Below are positions 3,765-15,546 of a DNA stretch of 49,135 nucleotides, in pieces. A program made the position numbers and the translations under genes. The stretch is taken from positions 1 to 49,135 of IMG/VR virus record IMGVR_UViG_3300042111_000485; one strand, written 5' to 3'. Source of the DNA: a virus. Numbering within the stretch: the first letter of the stretch is position 1; each line of letters starts with the position of its first letter. Below the pieces are notes generated by a model. The model searched no databases, had not been told where the DNA came from, and was given only the letters and a program-made list of their open reading frames with translations.

Positions 3765-5396
3765 TTAAAACTTGCGCTGCAAACGTTCGCGCTCGGTCAT
3801 GCCGTAAAAGAAATTCAGGTCATCAAACCGAAAGCACTCGAAGTTCGCGCTGTTGCGGTTGCAGACCCGGATCTCTTGCTCGGGCAGATCCAGGCGGGGC
3901 AAGAGGTAGTAGTCGAGCTCATTGGCGTTTTGTGTATCCAGTCGCACCGCCACAGTGATGTCAGGGTTGAAGCGCTCGGTGTCAAACCGGATGCGCCAGC
4001 GCTGCTGGCCATTGGGTAGGGTTTGACAGCGGGCCAGCACCAGGCTGATGACCAGCTCGTCGTTGAGGGTCAGCAAATCGGTCTTGCCGTCCCGGCGGAC
4101 GCTTCCGCCCAGCTCGGCAATGGTCTCTTCGGTACGGCGCACGATCTCGGGGTGCAATTGGCGCAGCCGCCGGTTGACTTCAATGAAGCCCTGATCGCGC
4201 GAGGTGTGAAAGCCCACTAGCTCGTAGGCCCGGCTGAGGCTGCCAAAGCGGTGTGCGTAGGTAATGGCGCACGGCAACCCAGGGGCCTGGTCGATGAGGA
4301 GACCCGACAAGGTACCGCATTCGGCATACAGGCGCTTGAGGTGAAACAGCAGCTCTTCGTCGCTGTAGCGGCGGGAGCGTTCGGCCAGTACCTCTTGGGC
4401 CTTGAGGAAAGTGTCCAGCGGCACGATGCCTTCAAACGCGCCCTCCTTGCGGATCCACATGGCTGGCGGGTTGTTGACGTGCTTTTTCTTGAGTTTGAAA
4501 GATCGGCGGTTGTAGACGTTGTTGCCGATGTACTTTTCGTTGGTGAGCAGCTGGCGCACGGTGCTGTAGCTCCAAGGTCGGCCGTAGTCAGTGCGGATGC
4601 CTTGGTCGTTAAGCCGCTTGGCGATTTCAGTCAGGGGCACGTCGTCCTGGATGAACCAGGCAAACATCTGCAAGACGGTGGCCACCTCATGGTCAGGGCC
4701 GGGCATGAGGATGACGCGGTCGGTTTGCAGGCTCTTGTGCTCGCCGTTTTTGAGCTCGCCCTTGATGGCACCGGTTTGGTCAATCAGCATGCGGCGCAGA
4801 CCGTAGCCTGCAGGACCTCCTTGGCGAAACCCCATTTCAATGAGCCGGCACTGCCCTGCAAAGACCTTGGCCGAGAGCTCTCGGCTGTATTCACCGGCCA
4901 TGGCCCGCTTGACGCCTTTGACGATGGTCGACACCGGCGAGCCGTCGTTTTCAAACTGCTCGGCCACGTAGGCAACGTGAATGTTCTTGCGCTTGCAGAT
5001 GTACTCGTAATAGGCCGATTCGTCCGCATCCTGAAACCGGCCCCAGCGGCTGACGTCGTAGACCAGGATGAGATTGAAGTCGGTGTTGCCCGATTCGACA
5101 TCGGCAATCAGGCGCTGCAGGGAGGCCCGGCCGTCGATGGACAGCCCGCTTTTGCCCTCGTCGGCATAGGTGCGCACGATCTCGATACCACGCCGGTCAG
5201 CGTATTCCTGGATCTTGTCAGCCTGGTTGTGCGTGGAGTACTGCTGATGCTCGGTGGACATGCGCACGTACTGCGCTGCGCGGAATGTTTTAGGTGAGTC
5301 TTCTGGCGTCATGGGCACTGGTGAACGTCTTGGTTCTGTTTGTTCGGACCATGTTGGCTTCGAAGCGGCAGAGCTATCAAGTTGTTTCTGGCCCAT
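3765..5396 (-). CDS. Large serine recombinase (resolvase-invertase domain)
   Basis: A site-specific DNA recombinase of 543 aa. The N-terminal catalytic domain (about residues 37-190) shows YVRMSTEHQQ with the presumed nucleophile Ser47 and Arg45, the DEGKSGLSIDGR motif, and DVSRWGRFQDADES with the conserved arginines. A recombinase DNA-binding domain follows (TEIAKRLNDQGIRTDYGRPW, LLTNEKYIGNNVYNR). The C-terminal 200 residues do not resemble the usual zinc ribbon. It heads a trio with two ParB-like genes and lies 18 nt after the HTH-NusG gene, so it is probably in one operon. It could move an island of its own or act in phage excision; a separate serine recombinase sits at the right end. Confidence 0.85.
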   Translation of the reverse strand: MGQKQLDSSAASKPTWSEQTEPRRSPVPMTPEDSPKTFRAAQYVRMSTEHQQYSTHNQADKIQEYADRRGIEIVRTYADEGKSGLSIDGRASLQRLIADVESGNTDFNLILVYDVSRWGRFQDADESAYYEYICKRKNIHVAYVAEQFENDGSPVSTIVKGVKRAMAGEYSRELSAKVFAGQCRLIEMGFRQGGPAGYGLRRMLIDQTGAIKGELKNGEHKSLQTDRVILMPGPDHEVATVLQMFAWFIQDDVPLTEIAKRLNDQGIRTDYGRPWSYSTVRQLLTNEKYIGNNVYNRRSFKLKKKHVNNPPAMWIRKEGAFEGIVPLDTFLKAQEVLAERSRRYSDEELLFHLKRLYAECGTLSGLLIDQAPGLPCAITYAHRFGSLSRAYELVGFHTSRDQGFIEVNRRLRQLHPEIVRRTEETIAELGGSVRRDGKTDLLTLNDELVISLVLARCQTLPNGQQRWRIRFDTERFNPDITVAVRLDTQNANELDYYLLPRLDLPEQEIRVCNRNSANFECFRFDDLNFFYGMTERERLQRKF

Positions 5397-5414
5397 CTGC
5401 GCAGACTTTTTCGA

Positions 5415-6356
5415 TCAGCCACATTTACGCAACTTGCCTGTGTCAATGTGCATGGCCACGGGCTTGTTGAGCATGGACAGCAGGATCATGGAGCGCTGCT
5501 CGGCATCCGCTGTTTGGTAGATCGCCTCGATGCCCGCGAAGGGCCCGTCGGTGACGACGACCTTGTCGCCTGGGGCAAAGAGAGCCTGAGGATTGGACTG
5601 CTGCAGTTGCTCGCGCTCGTGAAGGGCCGTGATCAGATCGGCCTCGACCTTGGCGGGGTGGCCACCAAACTTGACCAGATCCCGTACGCCCAAAGTGGAC
5701 CGAATGGGCGACCAACTTTGCCCTTTGATGTTGTCGCTGGTGTCCAGCTGCACAAACACGTAGCTGGGGAACATGGGCTCGGCGACCACCACCGACTTGC
5801 CCCGGCGGACCTTCTCCAAATGAAGCAAGGGCATGTAGCAGCGGAAGTTTTGCCGCTGCAAGTTGGTGATAGCCGTGTCTTCCTGGCGTGCCTTGGTGTG
5901 GACCAGATACCAAGCATGTCCCGGCGGCAAGGTCAGGTCCTGGACCGGTCTAGACTCTGGCTTGGGGGAAGCTCTAGGCGCCGGCTGCGTCGCAAGAACA
6001 GATACTGATGTCGATGTAGATGCTTTGACTCTGGGCGCTGGCTTGAGGTCTTCACGGACCGACGGCTTAAAAACCGTCGGATTCGATTCAACCCCCTGGG
6101 TGTTGACCGCTAGGTCGAGCGATCGGGCTATCGAGCGGATAAGCGGCAGGGGCCGCTCATGCTGCAGCACTTGCCTGAGGAGGTGGCGCACTTCGCGCTG
6201 CTCGAAGGCTTCGAGGTCTTCAAGGCGGTAGTAGACGTCAAGGCCTTGCTGGCAGATGGGCAGGCCATCATCTTGCCAGCGCAGCTGTTGCAGGCTGCCG
6301 GGCGTCAGGCCCAGGCGGTCAGCGGCCTCTTGGGTCGTCAGCAGCCTGGGAGGCAT
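5415..6356 (-). CDS. NusG/RfaH-like antiterminator with fused N-terminal HTH domain
   Basis: The C-terminal half is a NusG-family elongation factor: an NGN domain at about residues 147-250 (HAWYLVHTKARQEDTAITNL, MFPSYVFVQLD) and a KOW domain at about 259-311 (LFAPGDKVVVTDGPFAGIEA). The first 55 residues are an excisionase/MerR-like HTH (RLLTTQEAADRLGLTPGSL), joined by an unstructured linker rich in Pro, Ser and Thr (about 90-145). NusG is about 180 aa and RfaH about 160, so this is an unusual fusion. It would allow sequence-specific recruitment through DNA rather than through an ops-type pause hairpin. It lies between the lysis genes and the recombinase. The start is set at the first HTH Met; a start up to 17 codons upstream is possible. 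Confidence 0.8.
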   Translation of the reverse strand: MPPRLLTTQEAADRLGLTPGSLQQLRWQDDGLPICQQGLDVYYRLEDLEAFEQREVRHLLRQVLQHERPLPLIRSIARSLDLAVNTQGVESNPTVFKPSVREDLKPAPRVKASTSTSVSVLATQPAPRASPKPESRPVQDLTLPPGHAWYLVHTKARQEDTAITNLQRQNFRCYMPLLHLEKVRRGKSVVVAEPMFPSYVFVQLDTSDNIKGQSWSPIRSTLGVRDLVKFGGHPAKVEADLITALHEREQLQQSNPQALFAPGDKVVVTDGPFAGIEAIYQTADAEQRSMILLSMLNKPVAMHIDTGKLRKCG

Positions 6357-10257: not shown

Positions 10258-10691
10258 TGAACCTCTTTGAACCGGTAAATGCCCTCGACCTGCCAGCCGT
10301 GCAGCGCCAAGTTCTCAATGCGCTGAAAAACCACCCCGGCACCCTGCATGCAATGGAGCACCCCGCCCCCATCGACGCCCAGCCACACCCCCACGTGGAC
10401 GGGGTAGCGAGACTGGCGCATCAGCACGGCATCACCGTCAACACGATCGTGCGGGTGGGCAACGGCCGCCCAACGTTGGCGCTCCGGATGCGACTGAAAA
10501 CCCTTGAGGACGGCACGCAGGTTGGTGGCGTCCACCGGAATTTCCGGCAGTTCCCGGCCAAAGCACACACGCTGGACATGCAAAAACAGGCCCCAGCAGT
10601 CGAACTCATGCGGCCCCCTGCCTCCGGCGACCCAGGGGCGCCCAATGCACTCGTTGACCAGGTACAGGTGGCTCACCTCGATTCTCTTCAT
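10254..10691 (-). CDS. NlpC/P60 tail peptidase (lambda K-like)
   Basis: A 145-aa cysteine peptidase of the NlpC/P60 fold, as in tail-tip protein K, thought to cleave peptidoglycan cross-links during DNA entry. The likely catalytic Cys lies in FDCWGLF (about residue 32) and the His in VHVGVWLG (about residue 99). The start overlaps the stop of the DUF1833 gene (ATGA), and its end overlaps the tip gene start in the same way. Confidence 0.85.
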   Translation of the reverse strand: MKRIEVSHLYLVNECIGRPWVAGGRGPHEFDCWGLFLHVQRVCFGRELPEIPVDATNLRAVLKGFQSHPERQRWAAVAHPHDRVDGDAVLMRQSRYPVHVGVWLGVDGGGVLHCMQGAGVVFQRIENLALHGWQVEGIYRFKEVQ

Positions 10692-11230
10692 CGGGTCAGC
10701 CCAGGAAACTCTTTGGCGGTGTAAGTCCGCCCCGGAAAGGCCTTGTTGCCGATGTCCACCATGCGCGCCCGGGCTGTGATGCGAAGCGGATGGGCCTCCA
10801 CAAAGCTCAAGACCAACGTCAGCGGCGGATCCATCTGCGGGCCCGACAAGTCGTTGGAAAGATACGGCCGATAGGTCACCTCGATCATCTGCTGTGACTG
10901 CACGGCCGCATCTAGGTGCCGCATGACCTCTCGCGTCACGTTGTCCAGGGTGATTTCCACCTCCGGGACAGGCATGCTGTCGACCGCCGGCAGGTTCAGA
11001 TCAAAGGCCATGGCCACAAAGCGCACTTCCTCGCCTGGATGCAGCGGCGCAGAACTTTCCAGATGCGCAAAGAGATCGACCCGATCACGAACCACGCGAA
11101 TCGCTGTGAGAGCTCCTTGTTCATCCACGAAGTCCGGGTGGCGCAACTCCAGGGTGTGCAAGATCACCACATCGCTGGGCGCGCTGGCATAGGCCTCCCG
11201 AATGGCCTCAGAAAGCGACGCATCAGGCAT
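10688..11230 (-). CDS. DUF1833-family tail protein
   Basis: A 180-aa protein of the DUF1833 family, found in siphovirus tail-tip clusters before NlpC/P60; the mid-part SSDVVILHTLELRHP-like segment and the terminal GRTYTAKEFPGLTR are typical. It is probably a distal-tail structural component. The ATG at 11230 has AGGAG six bases upstream and lies inside the 3' end of the radical SAM gene (8-nt overlap), so the modification enzyme is co-translated with essential tail genes. Confidence 0.75.
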   Translation of the reverse strand: MPDASLSEAIREAYASAPSDVVILHTLELRHPDFVDEQGALTAIRVVRDRVDLFAHLESSAPLHPGEEVRFVAMAFDLNLPAVDSMPVPEVEITLDNVTREVMRHLDAAVQSQQMIEVTYRPYLSNDLSGPQMDPPLTLVLSFVEAHPLRITARARMVDIGNKAFPGRTYTAKEFPGLTR

Positions 11231-12638
11231 GAGTGGCTCCTGCGTTTTCTGCGCCTGCTGAAGCAGGCCTGGTGTCCACCTCGATCGGGATGACCTTGCG
11301 GGCAGGCTTTTGCACCGGACGCCCGGCCCTGCCAAAGACGTCCATGCGATCCTGGGGCAGATCACCGTCCTGCGACTCGATGCGAAACACGGCACATCCC
11401 GTCAAGTGCTCAATGGCCGCCACGAAGAACGGGATGTGGTCCGAGTAGGCGTTGTCACAAGCCGCCTGCCAAAGCGGGCCCTCCAGGAACATACAAGCGC
11501 CCTTGCAGGCTTGCAGCACCGGGCAAGTGGGGCATTCCGTGCGATGAGACCAATGCGTTGAGGTGTTCAGCGCGACCCCCGCGAGGTCCGCAAGGTGGCC
11601 CACGTGGTGGGACTGCCCGTTGGGGGCGACGGAGACGGAACTGACGTTCTGGCAGGTCAGCACTTGGCCTTTGAGGTCCACGGCCAGCTGGTCTGGCCGG
11701 TCCATGCCGCACTTTTGACCGAGGCCTTGGGCCGGGCGTCTTTCCAAAATGCTGCCTGCCCACTCCTGCATCCGCTGGCGGGCCACGTCCATGTGAACGA
11801 TGCGCCCGCGGCGGATCTCTTCCAACGATTGACGCCGAAAGGACACGGCATCGGCGGTTGACTGGAGGGAGTGAGCCAGACCGCCCGCGTCGTACGGATC
11901 CACAAAGGCGCCCTCCCCGATGGACAGGGATGGGTCCCCCGTGAGCTGCAGGAAGAACTTGGTGATCGCCTCGCGGCTGGTGTTGGTCCTGTGCACCATG
12001 GCATTGAAGGAAATACGCCCTTGCGGTGCCAGCCGCTGGTACAGATCCAAGATGCCTGCGCGGCTGGCTTCGTCTTCCAAAGGGTCTGGCCCCCGGGCGG
12101 CCTGGCCCGGGCCGTCATGGCTGATCCCCACACCAAAGCCCATGTCGTCCAGCCAGGCGTTGACTTCCCGGTTGAGCAAGGAGCCATTGGTGATGATGCT
12201 CAAGGCTGCGGCCGGGTAGCGCTTGCGCAATCCCTCGGCCAAGGGGCGCAGGGTCTTGATGTAGACCAGCGGCTCGCCGCCCCAGAACTCAATGCGCTGC
12301 GGGGGCTGGGGCAGGTTTTCGGCCAAGAGCGCCAAGAACGCCGGCACATCGGCCTGGGTGGTTTCAAGCGCGTGCGGCACAAAGCGCTGGCTGCAATAGT
12401 CACATGAATAGTTGCAAGACAGGCCCAGCTGGATCTTGAGCACCTTGGGCGCTTTCTTACGGCCAGGGTGGTGCACGCTGATCGCTTCGATGTGCCCAGA
12501 CGACCAGGTCTTTTCCACATAGGGCAAGGGCCAGTGCGTCAGATCCCCGGCGAGCAGCTCGCTCGTTTGGTTGTCATAGATGAGCGTCACCGGCTCGTTG
12601 GCACGGTTATGCGCACGCAAGGTGAACCGGGCCATCAC
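11223..12638 (-). CDS. Radical SAM/SPASM peptide-modifying enzyme
   Basis: A 471-aa radical S-adenosylmethionine enzyme. The cluster-binding motif CxxxCxxC is at Cys75, Cys79 and Cys82 (LSCNYSCDYC); GGEP for SAM binding is at 120-123. The C-terminus has the full seven-Cys SPASM pattern: C310, G324-x4-C329, C369-x2-C372-x5-C378-x3-C382, C394, which binds two auxiliary 4Fe-4S clusters and in known relatives marks enzymes acting on ribosomal peptides or proteins. About 70 residues precede the SAM domain and could bind substrate. It lies in the phage late operon, coupled on both sides (GTGA with the 77-aa gene, 8-nt overlap with DUF1833). The substrate is unknown; the Asn-Cys array of the tail protein at 14986-15546 is the obvious candidate. 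Start GTG 12638 or ATG 12635. Confidence 0.9.
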   Translation of the reverse strand: MMARFTLRAHNRANEPVTLIYDNQTSELLAGDLTHWPLPYVEKTWSSGHIEAISVHHPGRKKAPKVLKIQLGLSCNYSCDYCSQRFVPHALETTQADVPAFLALLAENLPQPPQRIEFWGGEPLVYIKTLRPLAEGLRKRYPAAALSIITNGSLLNREVNAWLDDMGFGVGISHDGPGQAARGPDPLEDEASRAGILDLYQRLAPQGRISFNAMVHRTNTSREAITKFFLQLTGDPSLSIGEGAFVDPYDAGGLAHSLQSTADAVSFRRQSLEEIRRGRIVHMDVARQRMQEWAGSILERRPAQGLGQKCGMDRPDQLAVDLKGQVLTCQNVSSVSVAPNGQSHHVGHLADLAGVALNTSTHWSHRTECPTCPVLQACKGACMFLEGPLWQAACDNAYSDHIPFFVAAIEHLTGCAVFRIESQDGDLPQDRMDVFGRAGRPVQKPARKVIPIEVDTRPASAGAENAGATHA

Positions 12639-12868
12639 TGACCCCCTGCTTGGGGGTCGTCACCGGCAAAGGCTTCGGGACAGGCCTGGCGGCAAACTTC
12701 CTCGGCACTTTGGTGTGGGAACTTGGCCAGGTGGTACTGGCGGCGCGAGCGAATGCGCTCGCCATCCATCACCGTCACGGTGAGCAAGACGTGCTCGTCG
12801 TCCAGCACTTCGATGGTTTTTTCGATCATGGCGGTTTTATTCAGGGCTTTACAGGGTGAGAGCTTCAC
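12635..12868 (-). CDS. 77-aa protein of the tail-modification cassette
   Basis: Not recognised. A small acidic/basic mixed protein with a predicted beta-hairpin region (EVLDDEHVLLTVTVMDGERI) and two Cys in the C-terminal half (VCRQACPEAF). The start is a GTG at 12868 overlapping the dioxygenase stop (GTGA), and the end overlaps the radical SAM start, so it is translated between two enzymes. A discrete RRE-like carrier or a structural/chaperone partner for the radical SAM enzyme would fit the position, but nothing in the sequence proves either. Confidence 0.65.
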   Translation of the reverse strand: MKLSPCKALNKTAMIEKTIEVLDDEHVLLTVTVMDGERIRSRRQYHLAKFPHQSAEEVCRQACPEAFAGDDPQAGGQ

Positions 12869-13530
12869 AGCGGGGTATAAAGCTCGGTGTAGTTGTGGGA
12901 CGCGACGCGCAGAGTCACGACGAGTAACACGCGCTCGCCGCTGGGGGCGTTAAAGGGATTGGTCTCGTGCCACACCCGGGCGGGGTGCAGGACAGCCAGG
13001 CCCGGGTAGGTTTCGACGGCGCGAACCTTCTCCCAAAAAGGAAACCCCGCCATGGGGCGGGGGTCCTGGAGAAGCAATTCACCGTCACCGACGGCCCAGT
13101 CACGGTCTTCAGGAGGACTTCGGCCCTGGCCGCAATCGAGGTACAGACACAGCACATGGTCGCCCGTGTGGTGATAGTGGGGTTGGGCTCGCATGCCCTG
13201 CCGGTAGCAGACCGGGATGCAGCGGGCGAGCACGGCCAGCTCATGGGCGTTGCCCACCGCATGGGCCTCCTGCAGATAGCGCCGATAGGTTCTGTCGACC
13301 CAGCCCTTGAAGTCACCCCAGACTTTGGGAGCCAGCGCCTCATGCGCGGGCTGGAACAAGTTCAGCTGCGTGCGCAATTTCACCGGCACCTCGGGAAGGC
13401 CATGCGTCGGTGGATGGGCCTTGTGGTGGACAAACCGCTCGGTGGTGAACTGCTTGAGTTCAGCAAGCTGCTCCGGGCCAAAGGGCGATGGCTCGTGCAG
13501 AACCGGCGTGGTCCACAGATGCTCAAGCAT
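12865..13530 (-). CDS. Fe(II)/2-oxoglutarate-dependent dioxygenase (first, HxH type)
   Basis: A 221-aa double-stranded beta-helix oxygenase, of the type common in phages. Candidate Fe ligands are H118 and H120 (QPHYHH), with H188 (RVWHETNPF) as the distal histidine, and R200 (SGERVLLVV) as the 2-oxoglutarate-binding arginine. The spacing resembles the TIGR02466-like group, in which the usual HxD is HxH or similar. Such enzymes hydroxylate amino-acid side chains or nucleobases. A strong GGAGGTGG ribosome site sits inside the end of the preceding oxygenase gene (8-nt overlap). Its place between the tail protein and the radical SAM gene suggests a protein substrate. Confidence 0.8.
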   Translation of the reverse strand: MLEHLWTTPVLHEPSPFGPEQLAELKQFTTERFVHHKAHPPTHGLPEVPVKLRTQLNLFQPAHEALAPKVWGDFKGWVDRTYRRYLQEAHAVGNAHELAVLARCIPVCYRQGMRAQPHYHHTGDHVLCLYLDCGQGRSPPEDRDWAVGDGELLLQDPRPMAGFPFWEKVRAVETYPGLAVLHPARVWHETNPFNAPSGERVLLVVTLRVASHNYTELYTPL

Positions 13531-14146
13531 GGTCCACCTCCAGCCCTTCTCCGCTCACCACTTCCGTGGCGAACGAGACGGCGATCCTCAGTTCACCGCA
13601 GTACCGCGAGATCGGCCGAGCGGTGTGGGTCTGGGTGCCGTTAAATACCAGCAAGCGATTGGGCTTGACCAGAGCGCAGGCATCGACCTCCCCTTGCGAG
13701 TCCAGGGTCACGAAGTCCCCGCCCCAGTCCCGCTCCCACCGGCTGACGGGGTACCAGACTGCCGTTCGGGCACAGGATGCGAATTGCGCCGGGAAATCCT
13801 GGTGAAACGCCGACTCGTCCCCAAACGACTGGAAATTGGCCCAGATGCGCGTGAACGATTCGTTATCAAAGTACTGGTGGCAAACGATTTGAGCGACCTG
13901 GGCCAAGGGGCTGCCTGCAGCCACAAAAGCCTCGTACGTCATCGCAGGGTTCCACGCACCCTGGTCGTAGTGATGCGGGCGGGTGCCCGGCAGCACAAAG
14001 TTGCGGTGCCAAAACGCCCCTGGTGCCTTGGCGTGGGCTTTCCAGCCGAACACAGCGGTTTGGCCCAGCAACCAGCGCCGGCAGGCCTGCGCCAGAGACG
14101 GCGGCACCGGCTCGTCAACGATCTGGATCCCTGAGTTGGCCGTCAT
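13523..14146 (-). CDS. Fe(II)/2-oxoglutarate-dependent dioxygenase (second, prolyl-hydroxylase-like)
   Basis: A 207-aa oxygenase with a complete 2OG-Fe(II) facial triad: H115 and D117 (FHQDF), H174 (THTARPIS), and R187 (ELRIAVSF) for the co-substrate carboxylate. WGGDFVTLD and PNRLLVFNG are the expected core strands of the prolyl 4-hydroxylase-like family. It differs clearly from the neighbouring oxygenase, so the two are not recent duplicates and may act on different residues. It overlaps the upstream gene by 4 nt (ATGA) and the downstream one by 8. Confidence 0.88.
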   Translation of the reverse strand: MTANSGIQIVDEPVPPSLAQACRRWLLGQTAVFGWKAHAKAPGAFWHRNFVLPGTRPHHYDQGAWNPAMTYEAFVAAGSPLAQVAQIVCHQYFDNESFTRIWANFQSFGDESAFHQDFPAQFASCARTAVWYPVSRWERDWGGDFVTLDSQGEVDACALVKPNRLLVFNGTQTHTARPISRYCGELRIAVSFATEVVSGEGLEVDHA

Positions 14147-14970
14147 GACAAAGTCACCTGTGCATCGTCCAAGCCCGGGTAGAACTTAAAACCCGCCTTG
14201 AGCCGAACCACGTCCCCGCGCTCCAGGCCCAGGGGCAGCACTTTGACCTGCGCGCGACCTGACTGGGTCATCACGCGGGCCTTGGGCAGGTAGCCATTGA
14301 CGGTTTCACAAAAAACCTCGGCATCCCGATCGGAAATGGGCTGTGCCTGCCCGTCCAGCAGTTGAAGATCGAAGACGACCGGCGCATCCGGACTTGCCGC
14401 CCGTGGAGCTTTGACCTGCACCGACGGAAACTTCATCTCCCGGGTGATTTCATGGGATTGATAGCCCAGCTCCTCGACGTCTTCCCCGGCCACACCTTCG
14501 ACCACGCAGCCTCCCAGGCTCGGATGCAGGTTCACGGTCACGAAACACTCCTCAAAGCTTGCGCTGGCAAAGGGAACGTTCAAGCCCAGCATGAAGTTGT
14601 CCTTGGTGATGCGGTACATCTGCATCATCTCGAAGCCGGTAAACCGCGTGGGCATGGAGAACGTGTACGACGGGAAAGGCGCCAACCACTTGCGCAAGCG
14701 CCAATCGAAGGAGCAGTTAAAGACCTGGCGGTCCGACCAGCTGCGGCTTTGGCGAAGGGTGGCCAGATCCAGCGTGATCGCATCCATGGCGTAGTAGGCC
14801 TTGCCTTCGATCTCAAATGCAGGTGTGGCGCCTTGAGCTCCACCCTCGCCATGGATCAAAGGCGTGGCAAACAGCGCATGAATTTCCTGGCGCTGGGCGT
14901 CGACCTGGACTCGGATGGCATAGTCCTGCGCCGGCGCCATGTAGGGAGAGCGGTTGAGATAGACCTTCAT
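14143..14970 (-). CDS. Unknown protein of the tail-modification cassette
   Basis: Not recognised. The 275-aa protein has no signal peptide or membrane segment. The middle is rich in aromatic residues (PFPSYTFSMPTRFTGFEMMQMY) and the last third (from about residue 185) reads like a beta-sandwich/Ig-like domain. It has few Cys and no Asn-Cys repeats. It starts 15 nt after the Asn-Cys tail protein, with AAGGGGG upstream, and overlaps the oxygenase gene by 4 nt. It may be a fibre-tip partner or the folding/attachment chaperone of the modified protein. Confidence 0.7.
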   Translation of the reverse strand: MKVYLNRSPYMAPAQDYAIRVQVDAQRQEIHALFATPLIHGEGGAQGATPAFEIEGKAYYAMDAITLDLATLRQSRSWSDRQVFNCSFDWRLRKWLAPFPSYTFSMPTRFTGFEMMQMYRITKDNFMLGLNVPFASASFEECFVTVNLHPSLGGCVVEGVAGEDVEELGYQSHEITREMKFPSVQVKAPRAASPDAPVVFDLQLLDGQAQPISDRDAEVFCETVNGYLPKARVMTQSGRAQVKVLPLGLERGDVVRLKAGFKFYPGLDDAQVTLS

Positions 14971-14985
14971 GACTGCGCCCCCTTT

Positions 14986-15546
14986 TCAGCAGCAGCCGCA
15001 GCAGGCGCAGTTGCAGTTGCAATTGCAATTGGTGCGGCAGTTGAAGGCGCCGCAGTTGCAGTTGCGAAACCACCGGCGAAACTCCGAGCCGCCGATTTCA
15101 TTGGCCGCTTCGTAGTAACCGTCGTAGTTAAAACCCACAGATACTGCGTTGAAGGCCTGGGTGGTACCACCGGCGCCGTCGTAGCTGCTCCAGTTGGCGC
15201 AGTTGCTCGTGGGAACACCACTGACGCCCCAGGTCCACCAGTTGCCATTGGGCGGGCTCCAAGTGCTGTTGCCTGCGCAGTTGCCGCTGGGCAGGTAGCC
15301 ATTGCAGTTGCCCGCCCGGTCGTCGTAGTACTGGCTCCATCGGTTCATCTCCCCGATGTCCTGACCATCTCCCATCTTGTAGCCGGTGTTGCGGGCGTCA
15401 TCGCCGGTCACGCTGCTTTTGATGACGGCGCCATTGGTCATGGTGATGGCGCCGGTCATGGTGCCACCGGTCTTGTCCAGCTTGCCGCTCAGCTCCGACT
15501 GCAAAGCATCGTCCAGCCCCGCTTTGGGGATGCGTGTGATGGGCAT
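14986..15546 (-). CDS. Tail-fibre-like protein with C-terminal Asn-Cys array
   Basis: A 186-aa protein. The N-terminus (PITRIPKAGLDDALQSEL, then a GGTMTGAITM motif) is typical of phage tail-fibre proteins. The middle (residues 75-150) is rich in Gly, Asn, Trp and Tyr. The last 24 residues contain 11 Cys (163, 165, 170, 174, 176, 178, 180, 182, 183, 185, 186), including NCNCNCNC and a terminal ACCGCC. Every one of the first ten Cys in the protein (81, 90 and 116 as well) directly follows Asn. It has a strong AGAGGAG site, lies 12 nt after the long fibre gene, and heads the operon carrying two oxygenases and a radical SAM enzyme. I infer a structural virion protein whose tip is post-translationally modified or metal-bound. 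Confidence 0.85.
   Translation of the reverse strand: MPITRIPKAGLDDALQSELSGKLDKTGGTMTGAITMTNGAVIKSSVTGDDARNTGYKMGDGQDIGEMNRWSQYYDDRAGNCNGYLPSGNCAGNSTWSPPNGNWWTWGVSGVPTSNCANWSSYDGAGGTTQAFNAVSVGFNYDGYYEAANEIGGSEFRRWFRNCNCGAFNCRTNCNCNCNCACCGCC

Follow-up and report, generated by a model that had tools for sequence, protein, structure and literature searches.

We analyzed a 49-kb virus record from IMG/VR (IMGVR_UViG_3300042111_000485; 49,135 nucleotides [nt]; hereafter the window, meaning this whole stretch of DNA), which carries a gene cassette linking a tail-fiber-like protein that ends in a run of Asn-Cys (N-C) units with a radical S-adenosylmethionine (SAM) enzyme of the SPASM type. Genes for a terminase, portal, head protease, tape measure, J-like tail protein, and integrase are recognizable in the window, whose source, judged by its genes, is a temperate tailed phage of siphovirus type. 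Within the tail operon on the minus strand, six cassette genes lie between a long tail fiber gene and a gene for a DUF1833 minor tail protein. They encode, in order, the array protein, a 275-amino-acid (aa) protein, 2-oxoglutarate (2OG) oxygenases A and B, a 77-aa protein, and the radical SAM/SPASM enzyme. The cassette genes and the two flanking genes are as follows.

14986-15546, minus strand: tail-fiber-like array protein, 186 aa, with the C-terminal Asn-Cys array, the proposed substrate; family profile matches PDB 8jov
14143-14970, minus strand: 275-aa partner protein, N-terminal domain plus C-terminal immunoglobulin (Ig)-like domain (AlphaFold2 model); family present in most cassettes
13523-14146, minus strand: 2OG-Fe(II) oxygenase A (HxD...H, R), accessory; PF13640, E=4e-5; NF052475, FlmC-like, E=8e-11
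12865-13530, minus strand: 2OG-Fe(II) oxygenase B (Hx[H/E/D]...H), accessory; PF13759, E=4e-4; phrog_81
12635-12868, minus strand: 77-aa protein (an internal ATG is possible), accessory; about 26 relatives among the loci examined
11223-12638, minus strand: radical SAM/SPASM enzyme, 471 aa, cassette core; phrog_1802, E=4e-57; PF04055; TIGR04085
15559-17877, minus strand: long tail fiber or stalk, upstream, context outside the conserved cassette; PF03906 above cut-off; phrog_3279, tail fiber
10688-11230, minus strand: DUF1833 minor tail protein, context; 8-nt overlap with the enzyme gene; PF08875, E=2e-39; phrog_396

The gene order, strand, and coordinates given in an earlier reading of the window (the original prediction) were found to be correct. 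A 15-nt gap separates the array gene from the 275-aa gene, followed by overlaps of 4, 8, 4, 4, and 8 nt down to the DUF1833 gene, whose ATG lies at 11230. The overlaps of 4 and 8 nt had been described accurately, but the 15 nt had been taken for an overlap as well.

The C-terminal end of the window array protein is NCNCGAFNCRTNCNCNCNCACCGCC. Its codons are mixed (AAC/AAT for Asn, TGC/TGT for Cys), which rules out DNA slippage as the origin of the array. The family profile of this protein matches the solved phage tail-fiber protein 8jov (E=4e-4) over a "DTMTG" segment, and the gene is situated between the fiber and the DUF1833/J genes. Similarity to a known fiber, the tail-operon site, and the terminus together agree with the predicted tail-fiber-like protein with an Asn-Cys end. 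Searches of GenBank phages by tblastn with the array protein and the 275-aa protein gave no match.

The enzyme contains the radical SAM motif CxxxCxxC (C75, C79, C82), a WGGEP motif, and the SPASM pattern C310-x13-G-x4-C329 ... C369-x2-C372-x5-C378-x3-C382 ... C394. Multiple alignment of 49 members, 33–57% identical to the window enzyme, revealed that the three core and seven SPASM Cys residues (10 in all) and GGE are invariant. All motifs that had been claimed for this enzyme are thus present, and the TIGR04085 (SPASM) match lies above its cut-off. These features place it in the radical SAM/SPASM class, from which radical chemistry on a protein is predicted. A scan of the window record with the other SPASM profile, PF13186, gave no match; since TIGR04085 matches where PF13186 misses, the miss of one library is not evidence of absence. 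Among relatives of the enzyme with solved structures are anaerobic sulfatase maturases (4k36) and 5wgg. At several loci (L024, L121, L151, L235, and L338), the full-length enzyme was seen to have a shorter radical SAM relative of 332–388 aa beside it.

To avoid circularity, arrays were searched for in IMG/VR with two DNA patterns for NCNC[ND]CxC that make no reference to the enzyme. These scans are a sample of IMG/VR, and the array counts here and below are among the matches listed. At least 113 arrays were located within 13 residues of the C-terminus or directly before a Hint domain. In 92 of these 113, the enzyme was encoded in the same stretch, every time on the same strand, and it lay downstream of the array in 88 of the 92 (median gap 1.36 kb). 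When the other 21 were searched as whole records, the enzyme was detected in 12 more. The last nine arrays lie 0.16–1.13 kb from a contig end and, because this is nearer than the usual 1.36-kb gap, are not testable. The enzyme was therefore found in the same record for every testable array (104/104), a link that is beyond chance, and 48 of the 51 array clusters (<60% identical tails) hold a testable case. Unrelated small Cys-rich phage proteins of the CKNCNCHC type that match the pattern served as a control, and none of them had the enzyme (0/43).

A similar picture was obtained starting from the enzyme. IMG/VR yielded 372 candidate stretches encoding enzyme relatives, 80 of which were retained; where upstream DNA is present, most of these have a nearby protein ending in an N-C array. 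For 25 of the 27 enzyme clusters whose flanking sequence is long enough, an array lies no more than 4.5 kb upstream or 4 kb downstream; in the remaining two it lies in the same stretch, farther upstream. Enzyme clusters with as little as approximately 25% identity show the association too, and it extends to unrelated carrier proteins. In addition, two fiber bodies were searched without their arrays: the enzyme was present in 79 of 79 testable loci, each of which has an array at its end, whether full, short, or followed by Hint, although the weight of this set is limited because the relatives are fairly close. Fiber homologs occurring widely without the enzymes, which the original prediction had named as evidence against itself, were thus not seen. 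The test that it had proposed, whether the enzyme genes always accompany the fiber, was passed by the radical SAM gene in every testable case; 2OG oxygenases occur near 15 of the 27 enzyme clusters, with none to three per locus.

The oxygenases are accordingly accessory, and array protein and radical SAM enzyme form the core of the cassette. The usual third member, left unnamed earlier, is the 275-aa family, which is encoded near 20 of the 27 clusters. Both oxygenases match 2OG-Fe(II) Pfam families below the curated cut-offs. Oxygenase A has H115-x-D117...H174 and R187, which are kept in 95–100% of 20 relatives, and its match to FlmC (NF052475; E=8e-11) reaches 42 bits against a cut-off of 240. 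H118 and H188 of oxygenase B do not vary among 143 relatives, which have H, E, or D as the middle ligand; the window protein has H. Complete metal and 2OG residues had been claimed for both; oxygenase A indeed has the facial triad Hx(D/E)...H, whereas the Hx[H/E/D]...H of oxygenase B is less standard than was implied. The 2OG domain of oxygenase A also matches phrog_274 (E=5e-13), whose label, "DNA endonuclease V", looks wrong.

The AlphaFold2 model of the 275-aa protein has a predicted local distance difference test (pLDDT) score of 91.7. Its C-terminal part matches the fold of Big-1/Ig domains, and the whole-length fold and the N-terminal domain match only unnamed phage proteins. The family was not detected in several cassettes, among them those of Achromobacter phages JWF and 2-1; gp29 of JWF does not match it, implying that this member is not universal.

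To characterize the repeated unit, we examined 60 non-redundant tails (<60% identity). The residue preceding Cys is Asn in 262 of 392 cases, Asp in 42, and Ala in 41. Successive Cys residues are nearly always 2 positions apart (274 spacings). The preference extends to the bodies of array proteins, outside the array, where 67% of 227 Cys residues directly follow an Asn, a 7.7-fold excess over background; between positions -5 and +5 around body Cys residues, Asn at -1 alone is fixed. The corresponding proportion is 0–4% in other cassette proteins and 7% in large phage open reading frames (ORFs). Considering that Asn precedes Cys in the bodies too, the radical SAM enzymes most likely recognize an Asn-Cys unit. 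The proposed substrates are proteins of 67–686 aa, mostly fiber-like.

Several arrays do not end the protein but continue directly into a Hint domain, which begins with CFPAGT, as in Achromobacter phages JWF and 2-1, Burkholderia paludis MSh1, several Rhodospirillales, and some IMG/VR phages. JWF gp28 matches Hint PF05203 with 47.5 bits (cut-off 32.1); the other array-Hint fusions fall under the cut-off and have the same junction. The array of L215, and that of two contigs whose tail is identical, is followed by an S74 chaperone domain (22.5 bits, cut-off 22). Hint and S74 domains both cleave themselves off. Self-cleavage of Hint would leave the array at the mature C-terminus, and the position of either domain directly after the array suggests selection for an exposed array end. 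At two other loci (L111 41-934 and L208 4636-5631), the array is followed by approximately 170 aa of another, unrecognized domain (SKI[IV]C.KL...) in the place of Hint or S74; L208, the one of the two that was checked, had no Pfam match there.

A reasonable hypothesis, to which we assign a probability of about 0.7, is that these genes form a phage-encoded maturation cassette for a tail-tip protein, in which the radical SAM enzyme modifies Asn-Cys units, most likely by thioether cross-linking. The array protein would be a subunit of the tail fiber or tail tip that, once mature, ends in a run of [N/D/A]-C units and has more N-C units in the body. The enzyme would recognize and modify these units inside the infected cell, either ahead of tail assembly or in its course; joining of Cys sulfur to carbon would turn the array into a rigid, reduction-proof cap, or else the outcome may be a special receptor-binding surface, optionally hydroxylated. 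Where present, the 2OG oxygenases might then hydroxylate Asn/Asp or neighboring residues. The 275-aa Ig-domain protein could be a companion, either a virion part binding the finished tip or an adaptor, and Hint (or S74) would cleave itself off to make the array terminal. The array may serve in adsorption or puncture. That the phage modifies its own fiber tip, as originally predicted, is supported by the linkage; that the array is modified, and how, is an inference. The array protein is probably the substrate of the enzyme, and a Cys thioether cross-link as the reaction is put forward tentatively, at slightly less than even odds.

Several observations weigh against this hypothesis. Support for the reaction type from profile scores is weak. 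The best curated matches across the enzyme family are the PapB and QhpD profiles, which match all 49 members, but the window enzyme scores 50.5 bits with PapB (NF047865; cut-off 340) and 50.9 bits with QhpD (TIGR03906; cut-off 453), far under both cut-offs, and viperin or geopeptide maturases score almost equally in the window protein (48 bits for the viperin model). The acceptor of PapB is acidic and at fixed spacing (CX3D), whereas here Asn at -1 alone is fixed and Asp is found at +4 in 10% of cases around body Cys residues, so that these proteins lack fixed CX3D units. Bacterial genomes also encode about ten enzyme relatives that are more distant (36–44% identity; L375, L377, L379, L381, L350, L354, L362, L364, L365, and L369, from Variovorax, Ramlibacter, Sulfuricella, and others) and have no visible array nearby, suggesting that part of the wider enzyme family may act otherwise; they may mark the boundary of the system or have a different substrate. 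Finally, the AlphaFold2 model of the array protein is poor (pLDDT 43) and was not used.

The same profile scores bear on another possibility, less likely than not but substantial, that contests the chemistry and not the substrate, and thus overlaps with our hypothesis: the enzyme might act on the array by a change other than a thioether at Asn-Cys, such as epimerization, a C-C or C-N link, Cbeta functionalization, or a backbone change. Thioethers between adjacent residues would be strained, and Asn at -1 is the only fixed position; moreover, enzymes of the SPASM family catalyze a wide variety of reactions, and several of their profiles give the window enzyme comparable scores. On the other hand, every unit has Cys as its invariant residue, and the best E-values belong to PapB and QhpD, both of which form thioethers from Cys sulfur to an Asp/Glu side-chain (methylene) carbon (PMC8172795).

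It is rather unlikely that the array is mainly a metal-binding, Fe-S-binding, or disulfide tip with CxC ligands, similar to metal-tipped spikes, to which the enzyme would contribute a minor change or metal loading. Dense CxC spacing as observed in the 60 tails is typical of metal-binding sequences, and both enzyme types are iron enzymes. However, a metal tip leaves unexplained why Asn precedes Cys in the bodies and why the enzyme is never missing, and the metallothionein-like phage proteins with similar motifs in the control lack the enzyme. An unlikely alternative is that the real substrate is another protein, such as the 275-aa protein or a host surface protein, with the array as a passive partner. 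The frequency of the 275-aa family would fit this, but its Cys residues show no N-C bias (Asn at -1 in 3.6%), and it is undetected in several cassettes, whereas an array was found with every evaluable enzyme cluster. Chance insertion into the tail operon of auxiliary metabolic or defense genes (viperin-like, lipopolysaccharide, or cofactor metabolism) is highly improbable and was rejected on the invariant linkage of the enzyme to a sequence feature of one structural protein, the 48-bit viperin score notwithstanding, and the SPASM domain retains all its Cys residues. To our knowledge, viperins lack a SPASM domain, which also counts against a viperin-like role. Radical SAM genes of Campylobacter phages have nevertheless been published as metabolic (PMC2853527).

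The cassette was also detected in named bacterial genomes, including several strains of Limnohabitans, Burkholderia paludis, Paraburkholderia, Polynucleobacter, Rhodobacterales, and Rhodospirillales, presumably as part of prophages; of the cultured phages in GenBank, Achromobacter phages JWF and 2-1 come nearest. Such phages, and prophages of named strains, make the cassette experimentally accessible. We consider it somewhat more probable than an even chance that there is a widespread class of tailed phages whose host-contacting tip is an Asn-Cys array remodeled by a dedicated radical SAM enzyme, an undescribed maturation that may involve new chemistry. Phage virion proteins are usually viewed as maturing by folding, chaperones, and proteolysis; if the hypothesis is correct, many phages that infect common freshwater and marine bacteria alter the chemistry of the part likely to make first contact with the host. 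Natural substrates of a radical SAM reaction would also become available in large numbers.

Cys-rich repeats were also observed in two other phages that have radical SAM genes. In Salmonella phage SPN3US (NC_027402.1; L382), two ORFs of 130–134 aa (5103-5495 and 5506-5910) with 20–21 Cys residues in Ser/Gly-Cys repeats lie between a virion structural gene and the radical SAM pair gp102 and gp103; they are unannotated in that frame, and the deposited gp100 is in another frame. This locus is possibly a parallel system in a well-studied phage. In Campylobacter phage CP220, for which 11 radical SAM proteins have been reported (PMC2853527), gp032 (L383 15887-16258) is a 123-aa protein with NC/KNC/INC/SNC Cys repeats.

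Radical SAM/SPASM protein maturases are already known as a kind; what appears to be undescribed is such a system at a phage tail tip, combining an N-C array and Hint-released ends with a 275-aa partner and, optionally, oxygenases. Our literature search, with subscription journals outside its scope, found no description of such a system, in line with the earlier statement that none of this composition was known. The label "RiPP-like" (ribosomally synthesized and post-translationally modified peptide) had also been applied to it. As had been noted, no precursor peptide with a leader, peptidase, or exporter is found among the operon genes; the proposed substrate is a large virion-type protein and the likeness to a RiPP cluster is an analogy only. 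Radical SAM cassettes of pelagimyophages vary inside the host recognition cluster or tail-fiber region, with no function stated (PMC7029224); they resemble the present cassette in location, and no substrate, array, Hint domain, or partner has been linked to them. The same holds for phrog_1802, "radical SAM domain-containing protein", which is the same phage enzyme family; our hypothesis offers a function for this family, usually labeled "radical SAM, other" or read as metabolic. The NCBIfam entries FlmC (2OG) and FlmE/OhkG (radical SAM/SPASM) represent both enzyme types as here, and FlmE/OhkG is matched by 44 of the 49 enzymes, with scores far under cut-off; no paper on this system was found in the literature search. 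PapB also acts on Cys-rich repetitive substrates, and its profile matches over its full length (residues 67-383); here, in contrast, a phage structural protein with Asn at -1 instead of CX3D would take the place of a precursor peptide. As in QhpD/QhpC, a radical SAM/SPASM gene lies beside the gene of its proposed substrate, a sizeable protein and not a short RiPP; unlike in QhpD, this candidate is an N-C array protein of a phage tail, often accompanied by 2OG oxygenases and the 275-aa partner.

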